A stretch of 64,000 nt of DNA, from positions 1 to 64,000 of the forward strand of contig LFWW01000002.1 of the NCBI GenBank assembly GCA_001273385.1. The letters are read 5' to 3'. The DNA comes from a miscellaneous Crenarchaeota group-6 archaeon AD8-1 (GTDB taxonomy: Archaea; Thermoproteota; Bathyarchaeia; Bathyarchaeales; Bathycorpusculaceae). Made by a program: the position numbers and the translations under genes. Positions 212-11,856 of the stretch are shown here, piece by piece. Below the pieces are notes generated by a model. That model did not search any database, was not told where the DNA came from, and worked only from the letters and a program-made list of their open reading frames with translations. Each line of letters starts with the position of its first letter. Positions within the stretch are counted from its first letter, which is position 1.

Positions 212-2509
212 TTAAGAATTGTTTTTGATCTTGAAAATTACGTATCTATTATTAGAATAAATCAGTTTTAATATTCTTGAATTTACAAGCTTTGTATCAA
301 GCTGGTTTTTGTCATAGACTATAAATTCAATTTCATTTTCTTCAATGTAATCATGGTAATCTCTGGATTTAATAATATATTCAGATTCAAATTCCCTATC
401 AAATTCAATGTTTAATTTATTTAGATCTTGCAGTTGTGGGTAACTTTTCTTTGAAAAACATAAAATAGCATAATTCATTGCAGCTTCATTATTCAGTTCT
501 ATTTTTTCAAAGGTATATTGAAAACGTATTGCATCAATCTGGCTACTGGATAATGCACCGATATTTCCCCAGTCTGGCAATTCAGAAAATTTTAGTGAAA
601 AGACAATTTCATCTGTTGCATCATATAAACCAATTAAATCATCTGTTAGTGTTTCCCTTGTAAAGTTAGTTACTGCCCAAGTATTGTCTTGAGAGTTAGA
701 TGGATTTTCCCAAGGATTTTCCCAATCCAATATACTGGGAACATACGCTTCTTTGAAAGAGAAAGAGAGATCGCAAAAAGTACTTAAATACAGTTTTATT
801 TCAGTGAGATCAGCAGTTTTGGCTAAAATAGTCCAAGTTACATTAATTGGATAGCTCTTATTATTAAAAACCATAGTTTGATAAAGATCTACCTCTTCAT
901 TGAAATAATGAATTATGATTTTCTTAGGATTATTCTTATCCTCAAAAATAATTTCCCTGTGCAAACTATATAGCTCAAAAAATCTTTCATCACCATTTAT
1001 TTGATATGATAAAAAGTCCCCTGCTCCAGAAGAATATGCAACTCTTCTCCAAACTGAATTTATTGATATATAGGTTTCAGCAGTAATTGCTCCCTTCGAT
1101 TCATAGGCCCTAACAAGAGTTAACGGATGCTCCACTTCGTAAGCTAATTCCAAAACAGATTCAGCAATCACATTTCTATCAACAATTGGATCTGTTTCTG
1201 CAAAAACAGTTTTTTCAGAGAAAACGCCAAACCAAGAACCGGGCACTTCAGTAACAACCACTGTAGTTGGATCTGGATTATTATTCTTTAACCAGAGTGC
1301 AGCATCAAATCCTTTTACATCAGAGGTAGAATAGAAAATGCTTCCTTCAAGTATTTTACCGTAGACTACTCCAAACCGAAATATGAAAAGAGAAATAAGA
1401 AGAAATACTAGTATATAAGAAACCAATAAAACTCTATTTTTTTTCCATTTATTTCCTATTTTATAGTTGAATTTTTCTATTTTATCTAAAATAAACCAGA
1501 ATGCTACAGCCGAAAAAATTGCAATCGAAGGCAACAGGTAATATACAAATCTCTGATAAGGAAGATAAATTCCTAAGAGATATGATTGAGAAAGGAAAAG
1601 AGGAATAAAAAAACCTAGAGAAAGAAGATAGTAAATACCTAAAGATCCTTTTTTCTTTAGTTCAGTAAAAGTTATTATCAAACCGAAAAAAGACAAAAAT
1701 AGAATAAATCCAAAATTTATAATGAATTTTTCAGCTGAAACTGCTGGGATCTGAAAAAGCATTGTTTCTAATTGAAAGAAAACTATATCGATAAAACTAC
1801 CAAGGTAAGGCAAAAGAGGCATTAAATAATATAATGAAAAAGCTATAACTCCTCCAATCAAAGCCGCTATCCAAGCTTTAGGAAATTTTCCTTTTGATTT
1901 TAAAAACATGATTAAAATAAATGGGGGAAAAATTATGAAAGCTAAAAATGTGGTTAACTGATGAGTCAAAACTAGAGAAAAAGCAAGAGTAAAGATTATC
2001 AGTATATTTCCTATTCCTTTTCTTTCTATTGATAGATATACAAAAAGAAGAACCAACATGCTTATGCTCAGTATTGTAGTATAACCACCCCACTGATTGA
2101 TTTCATATAATGGAAAACATAAGAGCAAAAATACAGCTGCAAAAATACCAATCTTTTTATTAAAAAATTTTGATCCTAGTAAATAAACAGAGAATATCAA
2201 TAACCAATCAATCAAAACAGTAAGAGTTTTTATTAAGAATATTAATGACTCAATTTCAATAGCACCAGTAAACGCAATCAATGTTGATAGGAAAATATGG
2301 TAAATAGGCGGGTACCAAGCTATATCGCTAATTGGTATTTTGCCAGTTGATAGAAAAAAATCAGCACGTTGCAAATGAACAGCAGGATCATTACCCAGCA
2401 CAAGTCCATTCATGGATAATATCGTATAAAAAAATACAAAAATAAAAACTGAAAAAACTGCTACAGCAAAGGTTTCAAATTTTTTTCCTCGCATTATTAT
2501 AGTAATCAT
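212..2509 (-). CDS. GT-C type multi-spanning membrane protein, probable glycosyltransferase (copy A)
   Basis: This 765-residue protein has about ten hydrophobic segments in its first 380 residues, followed by a large, apparently soluble C-terminal half. An acidic loop after the first membrane helix (NDPAVHLQRADFF, near residues 40-52) occupies the place of the catalytic Asp/Glu motif of GT-C enzymes, which use lipid-linked sugars on the outer membrane face. WGGYTT near residue 140 and LPYQRFVYYLLPS near 320 are echoed in the adjacent gene (WGGYPN and VDYNRFLYFVILP), so the two are tandem paralogs. The start overlaps a run of possible starts; an AAGGAG lies inside the end of the upstream gene. 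A role in glycosylation of surface proteins is inferred from fold only, and the sugar and acceptor are unknown. Confidence 0.6.
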   Translation of the reverse strand: MITIIMRGKKFETFAVAVFSVFIFVFFYTILSMNGLVLGNDPAVHLQRADFFLSTGKIPISDIAWYPPIYHIFLSTLIAFTGAIEIESLIFLIKTLTVLIDWLLIFSVYLLGSKFFNKKIGIFAAVFLLLCFPLYEINQWGGYTTILSISMLVLLFVYLSIERKGIGNILIIFTLAFSLVLTHQLTTFLAFIIFPPFILIMFLKSKGKFPKAWIAALIGGVIAFSLYYLMPLLPYLGSFIDIVFFQLETMLFQIPAVSAEKFIINFGFILFLSFFGLIITFTELKKKGSLGIYYLLSLGFFIPLFLSQSYLLGIYLPYQRFVYYLLPSIAIFSAVAFWFILDKIEKFNYKIGNKWKKNRVLLVSYILVFLLISLFIFRFGVVYGKILEGSIFYSTSDVKGFDAALWLKNNNPDPTTVVVTEVPGSWFGVFSEKTVFAETDPIVDRNVIAESVLELAYEVEHPLTLVRAYESKGAITAETYISINSVWRRVAYSSGAGDFLSYQINGDERFFELYSLHREIIFEDKNNPKKIIIHYFNEEVDLYQTMVFNNKSYPINVTWTILAKTADLTEIKLYLSTFCDLSFSFKEAYVPSILDWENPWENPSNSQDNTWAVTNFTRETLTDDLIGLYDATDEIVFSLKFSELPDWGNIGALSSSQIDAIRFQYTFEKIELNNEAAMNYAILCFSKKSYPQLQDLNKLNIEFDREFESEYIIKSRDYHDYIEENEIEFIVYDKNQLDTKLVNSRILKLIYSNNRYVIFKIKNNS

Positions 2510-2520
2510 ACTAGATCTAG

Positions 2521-4845
2521 TTACTCCTTTTTGTAAAAGTAACTATTTACTCGGAATACTGCTACTTCATCGTTAATAAAGACTAAATGAAAACCTGGAT
2601 CTGCAACAAATTTAGGAAGTATAGCGAAATCTCTGCATGCAACATAGGAGATGTTCCAATCTGATATGGCCTCTGAGTAGGAAAAAAATTCAATTGTTGA
2701 ATTAGTAAGAACTTCCGGATAAGAAAGTAGATTAGAATAAAGTATTTGCATTAAATAATTATTTCTACTTTCTTCAGTCTGATAAATTTCTGGATCATCT
2801 GATACTGAAAAAACTCCAAATGACAAATCTATTTTTAAATTATTTTTTTCATTAAAAAGATAGGTCAAATAAAAACCGCTAGGATTCTCTACAGTAACTT
2901 GAGTATATCGTAGTTGATTCTCATCAAATATTATTTGACCTAAAACTTTTGATCCTTCATCTATGAAGCCAACAGAATTTTCAATTTCTAAAAGTTCCCC
3001 TTTAGTATGAAGAAGATAATTTGCATTAATTATTGAAACATTCAAAAGATCTGATTCTAATATAATTGAAAGATCGACAAATCTTACACCGGAATATACG
3101 GTTATGTTTTGAGTATAATTTAAGTAATCATTACTTTTTTTTATTTGAACAGAAACTTGATTTGAACTATTTTGTATTTGCATCTCAGTAGTCTCAAGTT
3201 GCATAAGATCAAAAAGCTCATAACGCTTATCAATTTTTACCAGAATTGTATTCTCAGCATTATTAAAATGGAAAAAAGGATATGGAAAATAGGTCCAGTT
3301 TAGTTTTGCCAAAAACATCGGATTGTGTCTCCCTATATATCCTCCATCCTCTCTAACTTGAATTAAACCATTATCAACAACATAGTTTGTATCTAGCAAG
3401 TTATTAGCAACTTGGGCGGGTTCAAATTCACGCTCAAGCGTTAGAAATTGTGGGTCAACAGCACTTAAGGTGGGTCTTTGAGCGAATCCTGATAACCACC
3501 AACCATAATGTGCATCAGATACAAATACTGAGTCATTACGGGTGTTTTCTTTGGCCCAACTAATTGTCTCATATCCTGGATCGTTCATTACTTGATAGAA
3601 GCTTTGAATTGTTCTTCCTCGAAATGGAGTCAAAAAGATTGGAAGAGCAAAGAATGAAAGAATCAAGAAAAATAAAACAAATACTCCATAAATATTATTA
3701 TGAAAAATTCTATAAATAAAATTCTTTTGTTTTTTTGGTGAAGTTGGTTTTTTAGAATAATCTAACTTTTTTGCAGATCTGTAGTTATTAATTATGCGGG
3801 AAAAAAAATTTGATGCATGATCAAAGCCTAGTCCAAAAAGAATGATTATTGGTAAAATAACAAAATATAAAAATCTATTATAATCCACATAGAGCCCAAT
3901 TAAATAACCTTGAGTGGATATAACTGGAACTAAAAGCCAAATCAAAAATAGTATTGAAGAAATGGTCAAAAATTTACCCTTATATTTCTTTGAAAATAAA
4001 AGGAAAATAAAAGCACTGCAAAATAAGGGTATAATCCACTCTATTGGAAGAATGCGGGTTGATAGTAGCGCTTGTTGAATATCAGATACTCCACCTGTAA
4101 ATGTTCCACTATTTTTTCCTAAATATGCGGGTATTATATTGACAAGAAATGGAGAGATAATAATAAGTCCAATGATCAGCGATGATATCCAAAAAAGTGT
4201 TTGTTTTTTTGCAATTAACATTCTCTTTGGAATAATAATTAGAATTAATATTGTAGAGAGAGTTATTATGACGAATATTACGGATGTTAAAGAGTGAGAT
4301 AGAAAGATTGCAGCAGATAGAAGTCCTGTTATTAATAGAAAAGAGAAAGAGGAAAACCTCTTTTTCTGCAAATAGAAATAAAAAATTAAAGGAATAAGCA
4401 TTAAAGCAGCAGAATTAGGATAACCTCCCCATAATAACATTTCTATATCGAATCTTGAGATTGTTACTAAGAAAGCAACAATTAGTCCTGCTGATAATCC
4501 CCATGCAGCTTTTGTTATTAGAAAAGAACATAAAACGATTAGAGAGGAGAATAAGGCTATAGTTAATGAAAATACCAAATACTCAGGTAAACCAGTTATT
4601 AAAACAATGTATGATGCAAAAATATGATAACCAGGAAAGGTAAGTGATAGACCGCCTCCCATGTGATAGTAGTTCCATTGAAAATTAGTTTCACCAGACA
4701 AGGTGATAGAGTGAAGAACGCTATTATGTAGACCAATATCTGCGCCTGGAGGATAATAATCCAAATGTAGGGTAAGTAATCGATAAATTAGTGCAAAAGC
4801 AAAAACACATAGTAATAATATAGTTTTATTAGAGATTTTGACCAT
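2521..4845 (-). CDS. GT-C type multi-spanning membrane protein, probable glycosyltransferase (copy B)
   Basis: A 774-residue integral membrane protein with the same plan as its downstream neighbour: an N-terminal helix, an acidic loop (GADIGLHNSVLH, about residues 34-45), many membrane segments up to about residue 400, then an extracytoplasmic C-terminal domain with many Asn-x-Ser/Thr sites. WGGYPN and VDYNRFLYF match motifs in copy A. Eleven bases separate the two genes, so they are probably co-transcribed. Upstream lies a divergent promoter region shared with the corrinoid protein gene. The GT-C assignment rests on topology and the acidic loop. An oligosaccharyltransferase-like or polyprenyl-sugar-using role is possible. 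Confidence 0.6.
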   Translation of the reverse strand: MVKISNKTILLLCVFAFALIYRLLTLHLDYYPPGADIGLHNSVLHSITLSGETNFQWNYYHMGGGLSLTFPGYHIFASYIVLITGLPEYLVFSLTIALFSSLIVLCSFLITKAAWGLSAGLIVAFLVTISRFDIEMLLWGGYPNSAALMLIPLIFYFYLQKKRFSSFSFLLITGLLSAAIFLSHSLTSVIFVIITLSTILILIIIPKRMLIAKKQTLFWISSLIIGLIIISPFLVNIIPAYLGKNSGTFTGGVSDIQQALLSTRILPIEWIIPLFCSAFIFLLFSKKYKGKFLTISSILFLIWLLVPVISTQGYLIGLYVDYNRFLYFVILPIIILFGLGFDHASNFFSRIINNYRSAKKLDYSKKPTSPKKQKNFIYRIFHNNIYGVFVLFFLILSFFALPIFLTPFRGRTIQSFYQVMNDPGYETISWAKENTRNDSVFVSDAHYGWWLSGFAQRPTLSAVDPQFLTLEREFEPAQVANNLLDTNYVVDNGLIQVREDGGYIGRHNPMFLAKLNWTYFPYPFFHFNNAENTILVKIDKRYELFDLMQLETTEMQIQNSSNQVSVQIKKSNDYLNYTQNITVYSGVRFVDLSIILESDLLNVSIINANYLLHTKGELLEIENSVGFIDEGSKVLGQIIFDENQLRYTQVTVENPSGFYLTYLFNEKNNLKIDLSFGVFSVSDDPEIYQTEESRNNYLMQILYSNLLSYPEVLTNSTIEFFSYSEAISDWNISYVACRDFAILPKFVADPGFHLVFINDEVAVFRVNSYFYKKE

Positions 4846-4973: not shown

Positions 4974-5399
4974 ATGTCATGGCTTAAATCTATGATGGAA
5001 AAAGAGCCCAAAGAACCAGAGAACCCAATCGGAACAGTTGTTATTGGCAACATTCAACCAGATATGCATGATACAGCCAAAGAAGCCGTTAGAAAAGCTC
5101 TAAAGAGAGCGGGATTCAAAACAATTGATGTGGGCAAAAGTGCTCCTCCTCAAGTTTTTGTTGACAAAGTAAAAGAATCTAACGCTAATATACTTGCTAT
5201 TTCTGTTAATACGGTACCTGCGAAAAACAATCTAGGAAAATTAGACGAAGCTTTGAAAGCAGCAGAACTCAAAGAAAAAATTACAGTAATTATGGGTGGA
5301 GCTGCAGTTAGGAAAGAAGATGCAGAAGCAATGGGTGCACTATTCGGTAAAAACAAAGAAGAAGGCGTTGAATTAGCAAAAAAAGCAGTAGGAAAATAG
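4974..5399 (+). CDS. Stand-alone corrinoid (B12-binding) protein
   Basis: 141 residues forming a single Rossmann-type cobalamin-binding domain. The lower-ligand motif DxHDxG appears as DMHDTA around residues 31-36, so the histidine that coordinates cobalt is present while the usual Gly is Ala. Family members such as MtaC, MtbC and MtmC carry a four-helix cap domain before this fold. Here only about 20 residues precede it, so the cap is missing. The MtrH-like methyltransferase gene follows after 24 bases, which strongly suggests that this protein carries the methyl group between that enzyme and another partner. The methyl donor is unknown. Confidence 0.85.
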   Translation: MSWLKSMMEKEPKEPENPIGTVVIGNIQPDMHDTAKEAVRKALKRAGFKTIDVGKSAPPQVFVDKVKESNANILAISVNTVPAKNNLGKLDEALKAAELKEKITVIMGGAAVRKEDAEAMGALFGKNKEEGVELAKKAVGK

Positions 5400-5423
5400 C
5401 AAACTTCATCTGGATGAAAAATA

Positions 5424-6335
5424 ATGTTCAAATTTAAAACGGAACAAAAAATATATCAAGTTGGAAGAATACAAATCGGCGGTCAACCTGGAGAATTACC
5501 AACAGTTCTAATAGGCTCAATTTTTTGGCTTGGCCAAAAAATGGTGAAGGATGCAAATCAAGGATTATTTGATGCTCAAGAAGCAGAAAATTTGATCAAT
5601 AAAATGGAGACCTTAAGCGATATAACAGGTGTTCCATTTGTTTTAGATATCGTTGGAACCACTGCAGTTGCCTTTGAAAAATATGTTGATTTTGTTACTA
5701 AACATACTGAAGCGCCATTTCTACTTGATGCAATGAGTCCTAGAACACGAATGCAAAGTGCAGAAATCATAAAAAATGCAGGACTTCAAGACAGATGCAT
5801 ATACAATTCTTTCTATAAAGGTGTTTCAAAAAGAGAAGCTGAAAAAGTTAAAGAATGCGGAATAACAGCATCCATAGTACTAGCAGATGATCCTAAAGAT
5901 AACAGTTTAGAAGGAAAAATGAAAGTATTAGAAGAAGCATTAGCACTTGCAGCTGAAGGAGGAATAACAAAACCACTTATTGATACAGCTATACCTGCAT
6001 TTGAACCAGATATGGGAACCGCAGTAAGAGCAATACCTCAAATAAAAGAGAAATTTGGCCACCCAACTGGACTAGGCACTGGAAATGTTGTCACAACCAT
6101 GGGGTGGGTGAAAGCTAAATTTGAAAAACAATTTAGAAAAGGAACTAGAACTGCAACAAATGCTATAATGCAAACAATGGGCTCAAATTGGCTAATGTAT
6201 GGACCAGCGGAACAATCGGATTATGTATTTCCTGCAGTTGCAATAGTGGATGCATATATTGCTTCAGGTGCAGGTGATTTAGGTACAAGACCGCTGAACG
6301 AACAGCATCCGATTTATAAAATCTTTATGGGCTAA
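5424..6335 (+). CDS. MtrH-family methyltransferase (tetrahydromethanopterin/pterin:corrinoid)
   Basis: 303 residues aligning over their whole length with the H subunit of methyl-H4MPT:coenzyme M methyltransferase, including the N-terminal region GGQPGELPTVLIGSIF, the central LLDAMSPRTRMQSAEI and GITKPLIDTAIPAFEPD. MtrH moves a methyl group between the pterin carrier and a corrinoid. No other mtr subunit (A-G) is present and a stand-alone corrinoid protein is directly upstream, so this is probably a soluble two-component methyl-transfer module of the MtrH/MtgA kind, not part of the sodium-pumping Mtr complex. The direction (methyl group into or out of the Wood-Ljungdahl pathway) cannot be read from sequence. 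Confidence 0.85.
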   Translation: MFKFKTEQKIYQVGRIQIGGQPGELPTVLIGSIFWLGQKMVKDANQGLFDAQEAENLINKMETLSDITGVPFVLDIVGTTAVAFEKYVDFVTKHTEAPFLLDAMSPRTRMQSAEIIKNAGLQDRCIYNSFYKGVSKREAEKVKECGITASIVLADDPKDNSLEGKMKVLEEALALAAEGGITKPLIDTAIPAFEPDMGTAVRAIPQIKEKFGHPTGLGTGNVVTTMGWVKAKFEKQFRKGTRTATNAIMQTMGSNWLMYGPAEQSDYVFPAVAIVDAYIASGAGDLGTRPLNEQHPIYKIFMG

Positions 6336-6394
6336 CCATCCACATCCTTTCTTTTTTATTTTAGAAATGCCATCTTGTATTGAAGGAGCAAAAT

Positions 6395-6751
6395 TTGAAA
6401 CCCACTCTATGGCTTGGATTAATAATTCTCTATACAACGCTAACAATAGCATCTGTTTACTTTATACCTTCAGAGTCTATTTTTTCATGGTTGAATTATT
6501 TTCTTGGTTTTACTTTTGTTGCATTTATGCCTGGATATTGCTTAATTAATGTTTTATTTAAAGACGGAAAGCTGGAATTAATAGAAAGATTAGTGTTATC
6601 AATAGCATTAAGTTTTAGTTTAGTAGGAGTTTCAGGATTGTTTTTAGGACTTTCCTCAATTGGAATAGCTACTAATTCTATTGTAGTTACTCTTAGTGGT
6701 GTTGTTCTGATCTTAGCTTTTCTTGCTTTTATTAAAAAATTGCAGAAATAA
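6395..6751 (+). CDS. DUF1616-like small membrane protein
   Basis: About 118 residues with three to four membrane segments. The section FMPGYCLINVLF followed by LIERLVLSIALSFSLV matches the conserved core of DUF1616 proteins, whose function is unknown. The start is chosen as TTG at 6395 because AAGGAG at 6383-6388 lies six bases before it; an earlier in-frame TTG at 6380 would place the ribosome site inside the gene. It lies 59 bases after the MtrH-like gene on the same strand and may belong to that transcript, although a T-rich tract (around 6350-6361) lies between. Confidence 0.6.
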   Translation: MKPTLWLGLIILYTTLTIASVYFIPSESIFSWLNYFLGFTFVAFMPGYCLINVLFKDGKLELIERLVLSIALSFSLVGVSGLFLGLSSIGIATNSIVVTLSGVVLILAFLAFIKKLQK

Positions 6752-6811
6752 TTTTGTTTTTAACAAAGTTCTTAGTTTAAGATAATATGTAAAAAAAATT
6801 GAAGATCAAAG

Positions 6812-7747
6812 TTAGAAGAGAGATTTCCAACTCTCCACTAAGTCAAGAACTTCATCGCCACCGTATCCATCAAGTTCTTGCAACATATCAGTACTTTGTA
6901 TGGCTGCTTTTTGGAAGTCTCTAATTCTTTCTGCATTTTCTGCAAGAAATATTATTCCATCAACTCCTGTTCTAGCAATCCTTGTTGCAACAGTTAATAA
7001 ATCCTTAACCGGAGGTGTCTGTTTAGGATCGTCATTTGGACCACGAACATAAAGATTTGTGAATACTGGTTTTCTTAATTTACTCTTGAATGCCCTTGCT
7101 AGCATCTCCCAATACCAAGGAGAAGGATAAGCTTTGGAGAACATGGGAATAACAAATGTATCGGCATATTCTGCTAGAGCATCAAAATCATAGCCAAATC
7201 TTTCTCGACCTAAAACAGGATCAGGCAAGAGATTAACATAAAGGGGTTTATTCCTTACTATATCTTTCACTTCTTTCAAGAATTCAGTTACTGTTTTTGC
7301 TCTCCAATCATACCAATTTAATCCACTTACCCTCCATAATTCAACACACCGAGGGCAAACGCAAAACCCGTGATCCGCAAAATGCTGACTACTTATACTA
7401 ATACCAAGAGTCTTATCAGCACATTCTTTTATTAATTTTAAGTTATAATTTCTAACCTCTGGATTTGTCATACACAAGACATCCCACCTCAAGGTATATT
7501 TCTTATTTCCTGGATTAGCTCCATTTACTTTTGGAGGTGTCAATCGGCGAAATGCTGGACCATCCTTGGAAATCGAAATCCACTCAGGGTGCTTTTGTGC
7601 TAACTCATTATCTCCAAAAACGGCAATATTTGTAAACATATTAGGATTAGGTGTTCCCACAGTACCCGATTCAGGTTTTATACGGTAAAAATTTATATCA
7701 ACACCCTCAGCTGGCTCAGGCTGATAAAGGAAGGTTCCAAACTTCAA
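6812..7747 (-). CDS. Conserved protein with a CxCPRC motif, possibly glycoside-hydrolase-like (paralog A)
   Basis: 311 residues, no signal peptide. Features visible are HPEWISISKDGPAFRR at 53-68, FCVCPRCVELW at 128-138 (Cys129, 131 and 134), SGLNWYDWRA at 141-150 and LLPDPVLGRERFGYDF at 173-188. The order (an early HPEW segment, then a cysteine motif, then alternating hydrophobic strands) recalls uncharacterised TIM-barrel glycoside-hydrolase-like families, but I cannot name the family or activity. A clear paralog lies at 9127-10011 on the other strand, with CbiZ and a ferredoxin between them. Start is TTG with GGTGGAT just upstream. A role linked to the neighbouring corrinoid system is inferred from position only. 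Confidence 0.6.
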   Translation of the reverse strand: MKFGTFLYQPEPAEGVDINFYRIKPESGTVGTPNPNMFTNIAVFGDNELAQKHPEWISISKDGPAFRRLTPPKVNGANPGNKKYTLRWDVLCMTNPEVRNYNLKLIKECADKTLGISISSQHFADHGFCVCPRCVELWRVSGLNWYDWRAKTVTEFLKEVKDIVRNKPLYVNLLPDPVLGRERFGYDFDALAEYADTFVIPMFSKAYPSPWYWEMLARAFKSKLRKPVFTNLYVRGPNDDPKQTPPVKDLLTVATRIARTGVDGIIFLAENAERIRDFQKAAIQSTDMLQELDGYGGDEVLDLVESWKSLF

Positions 7748-7777
7748 TACTATCCACCATCAATTCCAATTTTTTAG

Positions 7778-8845
7778 TTAACCGAATAAATGTATGTTAA
7801 TTAAGAATGGAATCAAAATATTCTTAGTAAACGGAGGTAAATCAACAGAAGCCAGTTGCTTAATAATTTTATTTTTAGAGCTATTACTTGAATCTAGAAA
7901 CTTTTCTGAGAATTTATTTGATAAAAATTTTACATCTACAAGCTCTTTTGGTATAAGTCCTTTTTTAAAATCATCATCAAGTCTGGCTGCAGCTAATAAA
8001 AGAGAAGTCATGACTGTATTCATTTTAAGTTGCTTCTTTAGTTCTTTAATATCAATTGATATGTTCTCAATTTTTGATGCTTCGTAAGCAAGTTTTTCCA
8101 AAGATAAATTTCTTTCTTTCAGCCTCTTTATTACAGATCTGGATGGAGAAAAACCACCTACTTTAGCTTTTATTACAGCTTCTTTAACTGCTTTTCGTGT
8201 GCAAAACCCTACCAGATTTCCAAGCTTTGATGCTGGACCACCAGAAACAATATTTGATCCAAAACCGGTTTTAGCTATTACTAAAGCATCAGTTATTGTT
8301 CCAGTCGCTTCGTCACTAGAGTACCTGCTTCGAATGTCCAAATCTCTGAGAGCAGCAGTTTTGGCTTCTGTTGAGGTAATGAATATGTTAGCAAGACAAC
8401 TATTGGTCGGATTTCCATCTATGATAATAATGATATTGATTGTTCCCAGAATTTCATGAACTTCGATTTTTTCTCCTGCTGATTCAGAATGAGTGCATCC
8501 GGCAGTGGCAATAACACTAACGCCTAGATTGCCTTCTTTCTTAGAAACTAAAGCAAAATCTTTTATTGAAGCATAAGTCACCATTCCAACGAAGTCATCA
8601 AAATTTCCAAATTTTCTAGATGATTCAATAATGAATTTGACAGGATCTTTATGAAGTCGAAGATCACCATAATCATCAAAAACTTGAGTGTTAATTATTG
8701 CTTTTGTTTTTTTGCAGCCACCATTATGAATTGCCGAACTAATAACTTCTAAATTTTTTGAAGAGAGAACAGCTAAAACGTTTCCTTTAATAACAAGCTG
8801 AATATCTTCGCCTACTAAGGTATGATTTTCCATAAGATCTACCAT
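7778..8845 (-). CDS. cbiZ: Adenosylcobinamide amidohydrolase CbiZ with C-terminal extension
   Basis: 355 residues. CbiZ hydrolyses adenosylcobinamide to adenosylcobyric acid, allowing scavenged corrinoids to enter cobalamin synthesis. Family signatures seen include ATAGCTHSESAGE near 125, GTINIIIIIDGNPTNSCLAN around 145-165, FITSTEAKTAALRDLDI and SSDEATGTITDALVIA. The amidohydrolase part ends around residue 225; a further 130 residues, rich in Lys and Leu, are not explained by the family. Its start overlaps the stop of the ferredoxin gene by one base, implying coupled translation. It fits the corrinoid-dependent methyltransferase genes nearby. Confidence 0.85.
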   Translation of the reverse strand: MVDLMENHTLVGEDIQLVIKGNVLAVLSSKNLEVISSAIHNGGCKKTKAIINTQVFDDYGDLRLHKDPVKFIIESSRKFGNFDDFVGMVTYASIKDFALVSKKEGNLGVSVIATAGCTHSESAGEKIEVHEILGTINIIIIIDGNPTNSCLANIFITSTEAKTAALRDLDIRSRYSSDEATGTITDALVIAKTGFGSNIVSGGPASKLGNLVGFCTRKAVKEAVIKAKVGGFSPSRSVIKRLKERNLSLEKLAYEASKIENISIDIKELKKQLKMNTVMTSLLLAAARLDDDFKKGLIPKELVDVKFLSNKFSEKFLDSSNSSKNKIIKQLASVDLPPFTKNILIPFLINIHLFG

Positions 8846-9069
8846 TATTTTTCATTGATTTTTTTTTCTTCTAAAGTAATAGCTTTAGATGGGCACAAGC
8901 TTATGCAAACAGCGCATTTAGTGCAAGATGAATAATCAATTATTACAGGTTTTTGGTTCTCACCTAGTTCAATTATGCCCATAGGACAAACACCTGCACA
9001 GATAAGCGTTTTGCAAGGTGGACACTTTGAGGAATTGATAATAATCTTTGGAGATTGCTCATGCATCAT
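8845..9069 (-). CDS. Small 2[4Fe-4S] ferredoxin-like protein
   Basis: 74 residues with two cysteine clusters: CPPCKTLICAGVCP near residues 16-29, with an expanded loop compared with the usual CxxCxxCxxxCP, and a standard CTKCAVCISLCP near 49-60. It is expected to bind two [4Fe-4S] clusters and carry electrons. It is first in a two-gene unit with cbiZ and is divergent from the paralog at 9127, separated by 57 bases. A plausible role is supplying electrons for corrinoid reduction or reactivation, inferred from context. Confidence 0.8.
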   Translation of the reverse strand: MMHEQSPKIIINSSKCPPCKTLICAGVCPMGIIELGENQKPVIIDYSSCTKCAVCISLCPSKAITLEEKKINEK

Positions 9070-9126
9070 AAGTCAACAACTTAATAAGAGCCAGTAATAT
9101 ATCTCTTGCGCGCAAGATGAAATATT

Positions 9127-10011
9127 ATGGAAATTGGTTTAGTTTCTTATACTCCAGAAATAGTGAAGGGTTATGATTATCATGTGTATTACTCTAAATG
9201 GGTAAATGGTTCAATTTTTCCAGCTGGAAAAGAAATGCAAAATGATGTGACCTGTTTTTGTGATGCTAAAGCTATACGAGAGAAACCGGAAATTGTTGCA
9301 ATATCAAAATATGGTCCTGCACTAAGAAAGAATAGGAAAGCCAATTTAGCTTTTGATTATGTTTGTCCTACAAATCAAGAGTACAAAAACAAAGTTATTG
9401 ATTACATAAAAAAGCTAAATAAAGAAGAGATTAAAGGGGTAACATTAAATCTATACCATTTTCCAGAAGAAGAATTCTGTGTTTGTCCTAGATGTGTCGA
9501 GTTATGGCAGGCAAGTGGATTAAATTGGATTGATTGGCGTGCTGATATAATTACAAAATTTATAAAGGAAGCAAAAATTAATGTGAAGGGAACATTTGCA
9601 GTAGAAATGTTTCCTGATCCAATTTTAGCAAAAGAAAGATTTGGAATAGATTTTGAGAGTATTGCTCAACTTGTCGATTATTTTCATGTTCCTTTATCAG
9701 CTAGAGATTACACGACTAATTATTGGGTTAATCTTATCGCAAGAGATTTTTTGAAGATTTTAAAAAAACCTGTTGTGTTGGAATTAAGTGCTGAGATGCC
9801 AAATTTTGAAAAGATGGATGTCCTTTTAAAGACAATAGCTCATCTCTCAAAATATGACTTTAAAGCTATATTATTGTTGACACATGATTCCAAAAATGCA
9901 ATGCAGATAATTGAGTTTGCTGTAAAAAATAAAGATTTTAGAGATTGGTTAATAAAATTTGAATTTTCAGAAATGCTTGAGATAATAGATAAATGGTCTT
10001 CTATTTATTGA
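9127..10011 (+). CDS. Conserved protein with a CxCPRC motif, possibly glycoside-hydrolase-like (paralog B)
   Basis: 294 residues, clearly homologous to the protein at 6812-7747. Shared blocks are EFCVCPRCVELW (Cys118, 120 and 123), SGLNWIDWRAD and FPDPILAKERFGIDF, plus PEIVAISKYGPALRK near 54-68 matching the HPEW block of the other copy. Divergence is substantial outside these blocks, so the duplication is not recent. The CxCxxC arrangement could bind a metal or Fe-S cluster, and the conserved ERFGxDF could be catalytic; neither is proven. The 3' end overlaps the convergent nitrilase remnant by 11 bases. Function unknown. Confidence 0.6.
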   Translation: MEIGLVSYTPEIVKGYDYHVYYSKWVNGSIFPAGKEMQNDVTCFCDAKAIREKPEIVAISKYGPALRKNRKANLAFDYVCPTNQEYKNKVIDYIKKLNKEEIKGVTLNLYHFPEEEFCVCPRCVELWQASGLNWIDWRADIITKFIKEAKINVKGTFAVEMFPDPILAKERFGIDFESIAQLVDYFHVPLSARDYTTNYWVNLIARDFLKILKKPVVLELSAEMPNFEKMDVLLKTIAHLSKYDFKAILLLTHDSKNAMQIIEFAVKNKDFRDWLIKFEFSEMLEIIDKWSSIY

Positions 10012-10728
10012 TATATTTTTTTCTATAATCTAATAATCTTTTCATATCTAAATTTGCTGAAATTATTCTATCTCTGATTGCGTCAGAAACTTCAATTAAA
10101 ATTCCCCAAGGTGCAATTATTGCACTTCTCCCGCCAATTGTACTTGAGCATGTATTTCCAGCTTTCAAAATAAAAACTCCATTTTCTGAAGAAACTTTTT
10201 CTGTTAAAGGATGTCCTTTGACTGTGGGATGAGATCCCATAGCAGCAACGGGCAGAGATAGTATCTCTGCACCTAAAGTTGTAACATTTTTAATTAAAAC
10301 AGGATCAAACATATCAGCACAAACTAGTAATCCAATTTTACCAAATTCTGAATCAATGACTACTGGTTGATTTCCTCTTGCTACTCCAGCCAAGATTTCG
10401 CCCTTTATAGGATTTTTTTTCTTGTATTTTCCTAATAGTACACCGTTTTTCCAAAGAGTATTAGTATTGTAGTATTTTCCATCATACTCTTCAAGATATG
10501 TTCCACCAAGCAGATAGATAGAAGAAATTTCTTCCGATATTTTTGATAGGAATTCTATTGTAGGTTTTGATGTCAAGTTTGCAATTTTTTCTGCTGAATA
10601 AAAATTTGACAAACAACCTGGAACGGAAAAATATTCGGGTAGAGCGATAATAGCTGGCTTTCTTGTTTTAATTTAGGCACAGATAAGAATCCAATCTCAA
10701 CAACTTTTAAAGTTAACTGTGAAAACAT
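10001..10728 (-). pseudogene. Nitrilase/carbon-nitrogen hydrolase, frameshifted and shortened at the 5' end
   Basis: The intact part (TTG at 10612 down to 10001, 203 residues) contains the catalytic Lys region GKYKKKNPIKGE and the nucleophile region LLVCADMFDP of the CN-hydrolase Glu-Lys-Cys triad. The catalytic Glu block (IIALPEYF) lies just upstream in the same frame, but this frame is closed by a TAA about 20 codons earlier and has no canonical start before the Glu. The first beta strand (VVEIGFLSVP) is in another frame, beginning at an ATG at 10726-10728. The distance between strand and Glu is only about 16 residues, where roughly 30 are expected. This suggests a deletion plus frameshift near 10660-10675. 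An assembly error is the alternative. Confidence 0.65.
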
Positions 10729-10845: not shown

Positions 10846-11856
10846 ATGACAAACCTCTTACGCGAGGAAACTTATTTGAGCATTAATCCAAAAGATTATG
10901 AAAACCTCTTACCAGAGGTCAGAACCTTAGTTAACAGAGTTGTAAAAAGAAATCTGGCTGAAGCAATTTTATTTTCAGCAGGAACGGATACACAAATAAT
11001 TGCCTACGAAGCGGTCAAATACAAACCTAAAATCAAAGCTTTAACAATGGCCTTCAAATACGGAAATCCAAAAGACACAAAATATGTCAATAAAATGGTC
11101 GAATATCTCAAACTCAATCAAGAAACGCACACATTTGGGCGCAAAGAGGTTATCAAAAATGCACCAAAAATAGTCAAGGCATTAAAGAAGTTTGATCCTA
11201 TGGAAATAAGAAATAGCATGCCGGTCTATATTGGATTAATTCTATTAAAAGAAAAAGGGGTTAAGAGTGTCTCTACTGGTGATGCATTGGACGAACTTTT
11301 TGGATATCCATGGCAATTCCATTTATCTGAAGAAGAATTCAAGGAAAAACAAAAAGAGATGTGGGCTGAAATGGGATTCTCCTCGATACCCATGGCTAAA
11401 TCTCTTGGAATGACAATTAAAGCTCCCTTTTTGGATGAAGAATTCATGAATTGGGCAAAAAACCTACCAATTAAGCTTAAAATAAACTTGCATAATGGCA
11501 TAAAATATAGCAAGTGGATCATGAGAAAGGCTTATGAAGATATAATTCCAACTGACGTGATTTGGAGACCTAAAGCTCCTCTTGAAGCAGGAACTGGAAC
11601 AGAAGTTCTCAGAACCTTTTTTGATGAAGAAACTTCAGACCAAGAATTTGAAGAAACAAAAAAACAGATCTACAAACAAGACAATGTGAAAATTCAGGAT
11701 AAAGAGCAGCTTCTTTATTACAAGTTTTTCAGAGAAAATTTTGGTAAGCCTTCAGATGTATATCCCGACAATGGTGGAATACAATGTCCTTATTGCAAGA
11801 GCTACATTAAAACAAAGATACAGTTTTGCAAGATATGCGGAGCTTATCCTATTTAA
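10846..11856 (+). CDS. Asparagine-synthetase-like ATP-pyrophosphatase with C-terminal zinc ribbon
   Basis: 336 residues matching the synthetase half of AsnB without the N-terminal glutaminase. The PP-loop, normally SGGxDS, reads SAGTDT at 44-49; GDALDELFGYPW near 144-155 matches the second conserved block. The last 25 residues form a zinc ribbon (Cys314, 317, 328, 331), which AsnB lacks. It would activate an acid with ATP and transfer an amine from another source, but the substrate is unknown. TTTAAATA at 10829-10836 followed by GAGG and TTG at 10876 suggests an alternative start ten codons downstream. It stands alone between a decayed gene and a small-gene region. Confidence 0.7.
   Translation: MTNLLREETYLSINPKDYENLLPEVRTLVNRVVKRNLAEAILFSAGTDTQIIAYEAVKYKPKIKALTMAFKYGNPKDTKYVNKMVEYLKLNQETHTFGRKEVIKNAPKIVKALKKFDPMEIRNSMPVYIGLILLKEKGVKSVSTGDALDELFGYPWQFHLSEEEFKEKQKEMWAEMGFSSIPMAKSLGMTIKAPFLDEEFMNWAKNLPIKLKINLHNGIKYSKWIMRKAYEDIIPTDVIWRPKAPLEAGTGTEVLRTFFDEETSDQEFEETKKQIYKQDNVKIQDKEQLLYYKFFRENFGKPSDVYPDNGGIQCPYCKSYIKTKIQFCKICGAYPI

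Follow-up and report, generated by a model that had tools for sequence, protein, structure and literature searches.

The window examined here, a stretch of 64,000 nucleotides of contig LFWW01000002.1 from the miscellaneous Crenarchaeota group-6 archaeon AD8-1, contains a locus that very probably encodes a corrinoid-dependent O-demethylase for aryl methyl ethers, of the MtgB type known from Bathyarchaeia. Two paralogous proteins encoded in this locus, paralog 1 and paralog 2, almost certainly belong to the Bathyarchaeia-specific MtgB O-demethylase family, to which they were matched via published descriptions and not by sequence alignment. The MtgB system is of an already known kind and the window locus is a new member of it. 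MtgB is accompanied most constantly by a ferredoxin and CbiZ, not by the methyltransferase MtrH. MtgB systems strip methyl groups from lignin-like compounds, and the host is a sediment-type archaeon. Published work left two gaps, namely the origin of MtgB and the means by which its corrinoid stays reduced when no activating enzyme is present. Both are made testable by the ferredoxin–CbiZ–MtgB operon, by the near exclusion of the RACo activase from genomes with MtgB, and by an MtgB homolog located in a cobamide locus. Ferredoxin and CbiZ may take over the function of an activating enzyme, which previous work did not find.

The MtgB family was described by Yu et al. 2023 (PMC10989822) as proteins of ~ 300 aa without homology to known substrate-specific methyltransferases (MT1). 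Two copies, 44.85% similar, cluster with mtgA (methyltransferase 2, MT2), mtgC (corrinoid protein) and a membrane protein gene, and MtgB_2 O-demethylates guaiacol and vanillin in vitro. The family was reported to be confined to the order Baizomonadales of Bathyarchaeia, where about one third of the metagenome-assembled genomes carry it, and to form three phylogenetic groups, of which group 3 is distant and was left open as to function. A 2024 study (PMC11697101) counted two to five homologs of the O-demethylase gene of Yu et al. in Bathy-6. Bathyarchaeum tardum grows on 3,4-dimethoxybenzoate and vanillate (PMC10477458), and the authors of both O-demethylase studies found no activating enzyme (PMC10989822 and PMC10477458).

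The window paralogs are 294 and 311 aa long, are 34% identical to one another, and both contain the segment CVCPRCVELW. Profile searches assigned them to no confident known family and yielded no Pfam or NCBIfam MT1 match. The family tree resolves three groups with good support (A, B and C), of which C is the most distant; paralog 1 falls in group A (MtgB-A) and paralog 2 in group C (MtgB-C), whereas a third paralog is encoded on another contig of the host genome (G000:C57:24983-25882). Groups A and B are 45.6% identical in B. tardum and 49.2% identical in the host genome. MtgB was found in 18 of 61 relatives and in 47 of 116 genomes of the order, usually in three or four copies. All 80 named MtgB loci belong to Bathyarchaeia or to records labelled just Crenarchaeota or Nitrososphaerota, and one extra deep group extends to another order of the same class. 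The corrinoid protein of the window has a mass of 15.14 kDa, compared with 15.19 kDa for the published MtgC as implied by 1.2 mg/ml = 79 uM (PMC10989822). Its gene, that of the MtrH-like protein and that of a membrane protein (4974-6751) cluster with MtgB as in the published system, and the same clustering recurs in other genomes. The match to MtgB is thus based on size, paralogy, three-group phylogeny, taxonomic range, neighbours, the 15-kDa corrinoid protein and the lack of an activating enzyme. The substrate class is presumably also that of the published MtgB, the methoxylated aromatics.

The initial annotation regarded the paralogs as uncharacterised and suggested that they could occupy the place of a missing MT1. 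The family had already been described, and the assignment to the MT1 slot is well supported and in effect published (PMC10989822); methoxylated aromatics, which it named as possible donors, are well supported via the matching family (PMC10989822). Profile searches and open reading frames (ORFs) confirmed the genes that it listed, both in location and in identity. It mentioned neither the DUF1616 membrane protein gene nor the third paralog. The reported absence of classical MT1s extends across the host genome for URO-D (PF01208) and MTTB (PF06253), with MtaB not having been searched for. PF14574 (RACo/RamA) is also absent from this genome, which is 1.58 Mb in size and 93% complete, and whose relatives are Bathyarchaeia according to named records.

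Homologs of the paralogs recur, as the initial annotation proposed to check, beside MtrH and corrinoid protein genes and especially beside CbiZ. The parts of the unit present most consistently are ferredoxin and CbiZ, which the initial annotation had listed as neighbours. Both genes occur in every named locus that has at least two MtgB copies (39 of 39), always in the same arrangement, in which MtgB-C is divergent from the run ferredoxin–CbiZ–MtgB-A. Across these loci, some of which lie on short contigs, the hydrolase gene was found in 31, the AsnB-like gene in 25, MtrH in 19 and the corrinoid protein in 17. In several genomes the MtrH and corrinoid protein genes are located on another contig with the DUF1616 gene still alongside. 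Dozens of genomes repeat the gene order and all 39 loci contain ferredoxin and CbiZ, which excludes a chance assembly of the unit. The B. tardum genome carries the same unit (L037, L087 and L125). No description of a fixed ferredoxin–CbiZ–MtgB unit was found in the published accounts of MtgB systems that were consulted. The unit is new with respect to these accounts, as are the occurrence of MtgB with CbiZ but not with RACo, the fold with its four-cysteine site, the homolog in a cobamide locus, and the gene conversion between groups A and C.

The presence of CbiZ follows that of MtgB. Among the 61 relatives, CbiZ occurs in 18 of 18 MtgB genomes and in 2 of the 43 others, and in the order set of 116 genomes it occurs in all 47 MtgB genomes (Fisher 6e-22, a plain test uncorrected for shared ancestry, as is the other one given below). 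The tie between MtgB and MtrH alone proved weak (16/18 MtgB genomes versus 23/43 others), which leaves CbiZ instead of MtrH as the informative neighbour. The RACo activase was found in 15 of the 61 relatives and in none of the 18 with MtgB, and in 30 of the 116 order genomes, two of which are among the 47 with MtgB. A strict exclusion, as seen at first (0/18), was dropped on account of these two exceptions. In one of them (L161, G266:C48) the RACo gene lies on a contig of 70% GC in a bathyarchaeal genome of 45% GC, probably a contamination, and in the other (G353) it adjoins a second MtrH. RACo tracks the URO-D/MTTB MT1s (12 of 15 genomes, Fisher 1e-7). This co-occurrence pattern, in which RACo is rare with MtgB and follows URO-D/MTTB, suggests that the MtgB system operates without RACo. 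Ferredoxin and CbiZ would then be the obvious candidates to take its place.

In the probable mechanism, MtgB-A would demethylate a methoxylated aromatic compound and pass the methyl group to Co(I) of the 15-kDa corrinoid protein. The group B protein encoded elsewhere in the genome probably shares this MT1 role, and the group C protein perhaps does. The MtrH-like protein would transfer the methyl group to tetrahydromethanopterin, and methyl-tetrahydromethanopterin would feed acetyl-CoA/acetate formation. The ferredoxin–CbiZ–MtgB-A operon is proposed here to be the service part of the machine; CbiZ would supply or remodel the corrinoid, and the dicluster ferredoxin would re-reduce Co(II) to Co(I), replacing an ATP-dependent RACo-type activating enzyme. 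Taken alone, the activation role of ferredoxin and CbiZ is proposed tentatively. Equally speculative is the fuller model of a RACo-independent activation module in which ferredoxin donates electrons, the CbiS-like protein loads or swaps the MtgC cofactor, and MtgB is derived from a cobamide-salvage glycosidase-type barrel. HgcB was the sole precedent found in the literature for corrinoid activation by CbiZ and ferredoxin; this dicluster ferredoxin is the presumed reductant of the HgcA corrinoid (PMC7305189).

The linked CbiZ is of the long CbiS type, with an N-terminal CbiZ and a degenerate C-terminal part related to CobZ. The window protein scores 121.9 bits against the CbiS profile (cut-off 250) and has no match to the CobZ phosphatase domain, for which L132 gave a weak match. 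The C-terminal part was considered as a special activase part and set aside because one clade (L041, L054, L058 and L110) has lost it and the CbiZ of cobamide operons also has it. The predicted model of the window CbiZ (pLDDT 89.6) bears a weak likeness to ornithine acetyltransferase and to the autoprocessing hydrolases NylC, DmpA and BapA (TM 0.37 for the NylC/DmpA type). Sequence searches identified no structure of a CbiZ. The family core (T90, G124, GTIN, TEAK and ATG[TS]xTD) is retained, and the linked protein is for this reason probably still an enzyme acting on corrinoids. A His mostly replaces the Asn119 of the other two kinds of CbiZ. In the CbiZ tree the linked copy groups with the CbiZ of cobamide operons, apart from the stand-alone salvage CbiZ. 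This grouping, the retained hydrolase core, and the retention of CbiZ in some genomes that lack MtgB are consistent with an alternative in which CbiZ and ferredoxin lie outside the methyl-transfer machine, as a remnant of cobamide salvage linked to it by descent. However, the order ferredoxin–CbiZ–MtgB-A is tight in 39 of 39 loci across several families, and other genomes have a second, stand-alone CbiZ at a separate locus with transporter genes, so that the linked copy is not just the gene used for salvage. Such a descent-only linkage is conceivable, though somewhat doubtful.

Several points weigh against the reading of the locus as an MtgB O-demethylase served by ferredoxin and CbiZ. The identity with the assayed MtgB_2 is indirect, as it relies on the published description and not on its sequence, and shared ancestry may bear on the plain Fisher tests given above. 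No MtrH was detected in the MtgB-positive genomes G012 and G031, which are 75% and 71% complete, respectively. The Co(II)/Co(I) couple of O-demethylases lies at about -530 mV without ATP help (PMC6739815), which is hard to reach for a free ferredoxin. Finally, eight genomes of genus g12 appear to retain the long CbiZ without MtgB, and CbiZ is therefore not strictly tied to MtgB. One of these loci (L139, genome G014) has the long CbiZ still beside the AsnB-like gene, and ferredoxin was not found at L139. L139 and the seven other g12 genomes may match Bathy-6B, which is reported to lack MtgB and to carry a second MtgA (PMC11697101).

Sequence searches of the paralogs against solved structures yielded no matches. 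Structure comparison of the MtgB-A model (pLDDT 94.6), on the other hand, identified the glycosidase-type TIM barrels of Cwp19, GH164 and GH42. Four cysteines are near-invariant in MtgB, at positions 92, 129, 131 and 134, and comprise the CxCPRC motif and a fourth Cys. Their spacing is nearly that of the GH42 zinc site (cysteines 113, 153, 155 and 158), which has been described as stabilising (PMC8573354). A catalytic role for CxCPRC was set aside, since four near-invariant cysteines spaced as in GH42 point to an occupied structural site. Of the TIM barrel and metal site sought to follow up the initial annotation, the barrel was found in the predicted model, and the cysteines form a candidate metal site that looks like a GH42-like structural zinc site and not a catalytic one. 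In the alignment, the acid of the GIHLD motif of hydrolase-like relatives is Ser in group A and Asn in groups B and C; the deep group has Asp or Glu at this position. Conserved throughout groups A, B and C are K24, D46, N81, the four cysteines, H122, D176, R183 and Y207. From these data we infer that a hydrolase-like barrel was co-opted for methyl transfer in MtgB; H122, D/E125, D176 and Y207 are candidate residues of its active site. Glycoside hydrolases that release methylated sugars are a highly improbable interpretation of the paralogs, despite the GH164, GH42 and Cwp19 barrel matches and a deep homolog that exceeds the Pfam DUF4015 cut-off, because groups A, B and C have Ser or Asn in place of the acid, the conserved unit lacks carbohydrate genes, the paralogs co-occur with MtrH, the corrinoid protein and CbiZ, and the matching published family has methyltransferase activity (PMC10989822). 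The preparation of a methylated sugar, also raised in the initial annotation, found nothing in its favour beyond the glycosidase-like fold.

A single deep-branching MtgB homolog occurs in two genomes of another bathyarchaeal order (L132:3589-13244 and L133). It passes the cut-off of Pfam DUF4015, 'putative glycosyl hydrolase', and is located between BtuF and a run of radical SAM, BtuC and BtuD genes, facing CbiB, CobT, CbiS, CobS and CobY. Because this homolog lies within a cobamide synthesis and import locus, the oldest visible relative of the MtgB family is placed in cobamide supply, which suggests how the linkage of CbiZ and MtgB arose. G085, one of the two genomes, has a separate MTTB–activase–MtrH cluster. 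B. tardum carries a fourth, divergent MtgB of group D (L038:7727-8620), with no recognisable corrinoid neighbourhood around it.

The nucleotide sequences show short-tract gene conversion over the CxCPRC segment between the A and C copies, which are inverted relative to one another. Exact A/C runs of 112, 97, 83 and 70 nt cover this segment in L082, L061, L056 and L053, respectively, whereas the whole A and C genes of these loci are ~ 50% identical. The shared tracts always correspond to codons ~ 115–155 (CxCPRC...SGLNWxxWR). In the window, A and C are 81% identical over 63 nt of the segment. Homogenisation of the CxCPRC segment would fit a surface for a shared partner, such as the corrinoid protein.

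These observations bear on a further alternative, in which only groups A and B are MT1 enzymes and group C, together with the deep group D, serves corrinoid salvage with CbiZ, acting on a cobamide or its lower ligand. The location of the deep homolog in a cobamide synthesis and BtuFCD import locus, the separate MTTB–activase–MtrH system of one deep-homolog genome, the constant divergence of group C from the ferredoxin–CbiZ genes, and the function of group 3 left open in the published work (PMC10989822) all point in this direction. Nonetheless, group C has nearly all the residues conserved in A and B and has exchanged sequence with A by gene conversion. Group D retains the acid that is Ser in A and Asn in B and C, and may differ in function from C. 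A salvage role for group C is judged rather unlikely.

The features of the locus are listed in Table 1. From left to right, the plus strand encodes the corrinoid protein, the MtrH-like protein and the DUF1616 membrane protein. Ferredoxin, CbiZ and paralog 1 form a tight minus-strand operon with gaps of 30 and -1 nt, in which the ferredoxin gene and the start of cbiZ share 1 nt. Paralog 2 is followed by the carbon-nitrogen hydrolase and AsnB-like genes. The D-x-H base-off motif of the corrinoid protein reads DMHDTA, and the profile search gave no match to a helical cap. The MtrH-like protein matches NCBIfam MtgA at 2.8e-63, under the cut-off of that family. The DUF1616 gene is conserved beside mtrH in many loci, and its product is perhaps the transmembrane protein of the published MtgB cluster. 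The hydrolase (window 10001-10720) has lost its N-terminal part, with in-frame stops upstream, either by decay or through an assembly error; most full homologs elsewhere are 249–266 aa long. Two large (~ 770 aa) multi-span membrane proteins are encoded at 212-4845 and recur beside corrinoid–MtrH genes, even where MtgB is located elsewhere (L046, L048, L153 and L154).

Table 1 Features of the MtgB locus in the window.
Feature	Position	Strand	Evidence
MtgC-like corrinoid protein, 141 aa, 15.14 kDa	4974..5399	+	PF02310 2.3e-13; B12-binding domain only
MtgA/MtrH-like methyltransferase 2 (corrinoid to tetrahydromethanopterin)	5424..6335	+	PF02007 8.5e-79, 265 bits
DUF1616-type small membrane protein, between MtrH and the paralogs	6380..6751	+	PF07760 3.5e-17
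MtgB group A (paralog 1), probable substrate-specific methyltransferase 1, TTG start	6812..7747	-	tree group A; model pLDDT 94.6
Long CbiZ of CbiS-like type with degenerate CobZ part, in one operon with ferredoxin and MtgB-A	7778..8845	-	PF01955 2.9e-45, 155 bits
Dicluster [4Fe-4S] ferredoxin, 74 aa, candidate corrinoid electron donor	8845..9069	-	ORF; PF13237 3.1e-10
MtgB group C (paralog 2; = published group 3), 57 nt from divergent ferredoxin gene	9127..10011	+	tree group C
Carbon-nitrogen hydrolase, beside MtgB-C in most loci	10001..10612	-	PF00795 1.2e-16; N-terminus damaged here
Asparagine-synthase-like protein (AsnB-like), frequent neighbourhood member	10846..11856	+	PF00733 6e-30

Among the closest known systems is MtgB/MtgA/MtgC of Ca. 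Baizosediminiarchaeum ligniniphilus, which likewise comprises ~ 300-aa MT1 paralogs in three groups, an MtrH-like MT2, a 15-kDa corrinoid protein and a membrane protein, has a bathyarchaeal range, and lacks an activating enzyme. It differs in that here A and C are encoded together and B elsewhere, and in that the conserved neighbourhood includes ferredoxin, CbiZ, the carbon-nitrogen hydrolase and the AsnB-like protein, none of which was found in the published description. The putative O-demethylase cluster of B. tardum (PMC10477458), which has no activating enzyme according to its authors, shares the unit, but has A, B and C copies in one cluster in addition to the group D copy (L038). Classical corrinoid systems, with MtvB/URO-D or MttB-type MT1s and RamA/RACo, have the same division into MT1, corrinoid protein and MT2, whereas here the MT1 is unrelated in sequence, the corrinoid protein has no helical-cap match, and RACo is missing. 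The GH42/GHL barrels (DUF4015, DUF4838) have the fold and the C...CxCxxC pattern in common with MtgB, but the hydrolase acid is replaced in MtgB groups A–C and the genomic context differs. In HgcAB, a small dicluster ferredoxin, HgcB, is similarly paired with a corrinoid protein; in the window system the corrinoid protein is soluble and its reduction by the ferredoxin is a proposal.

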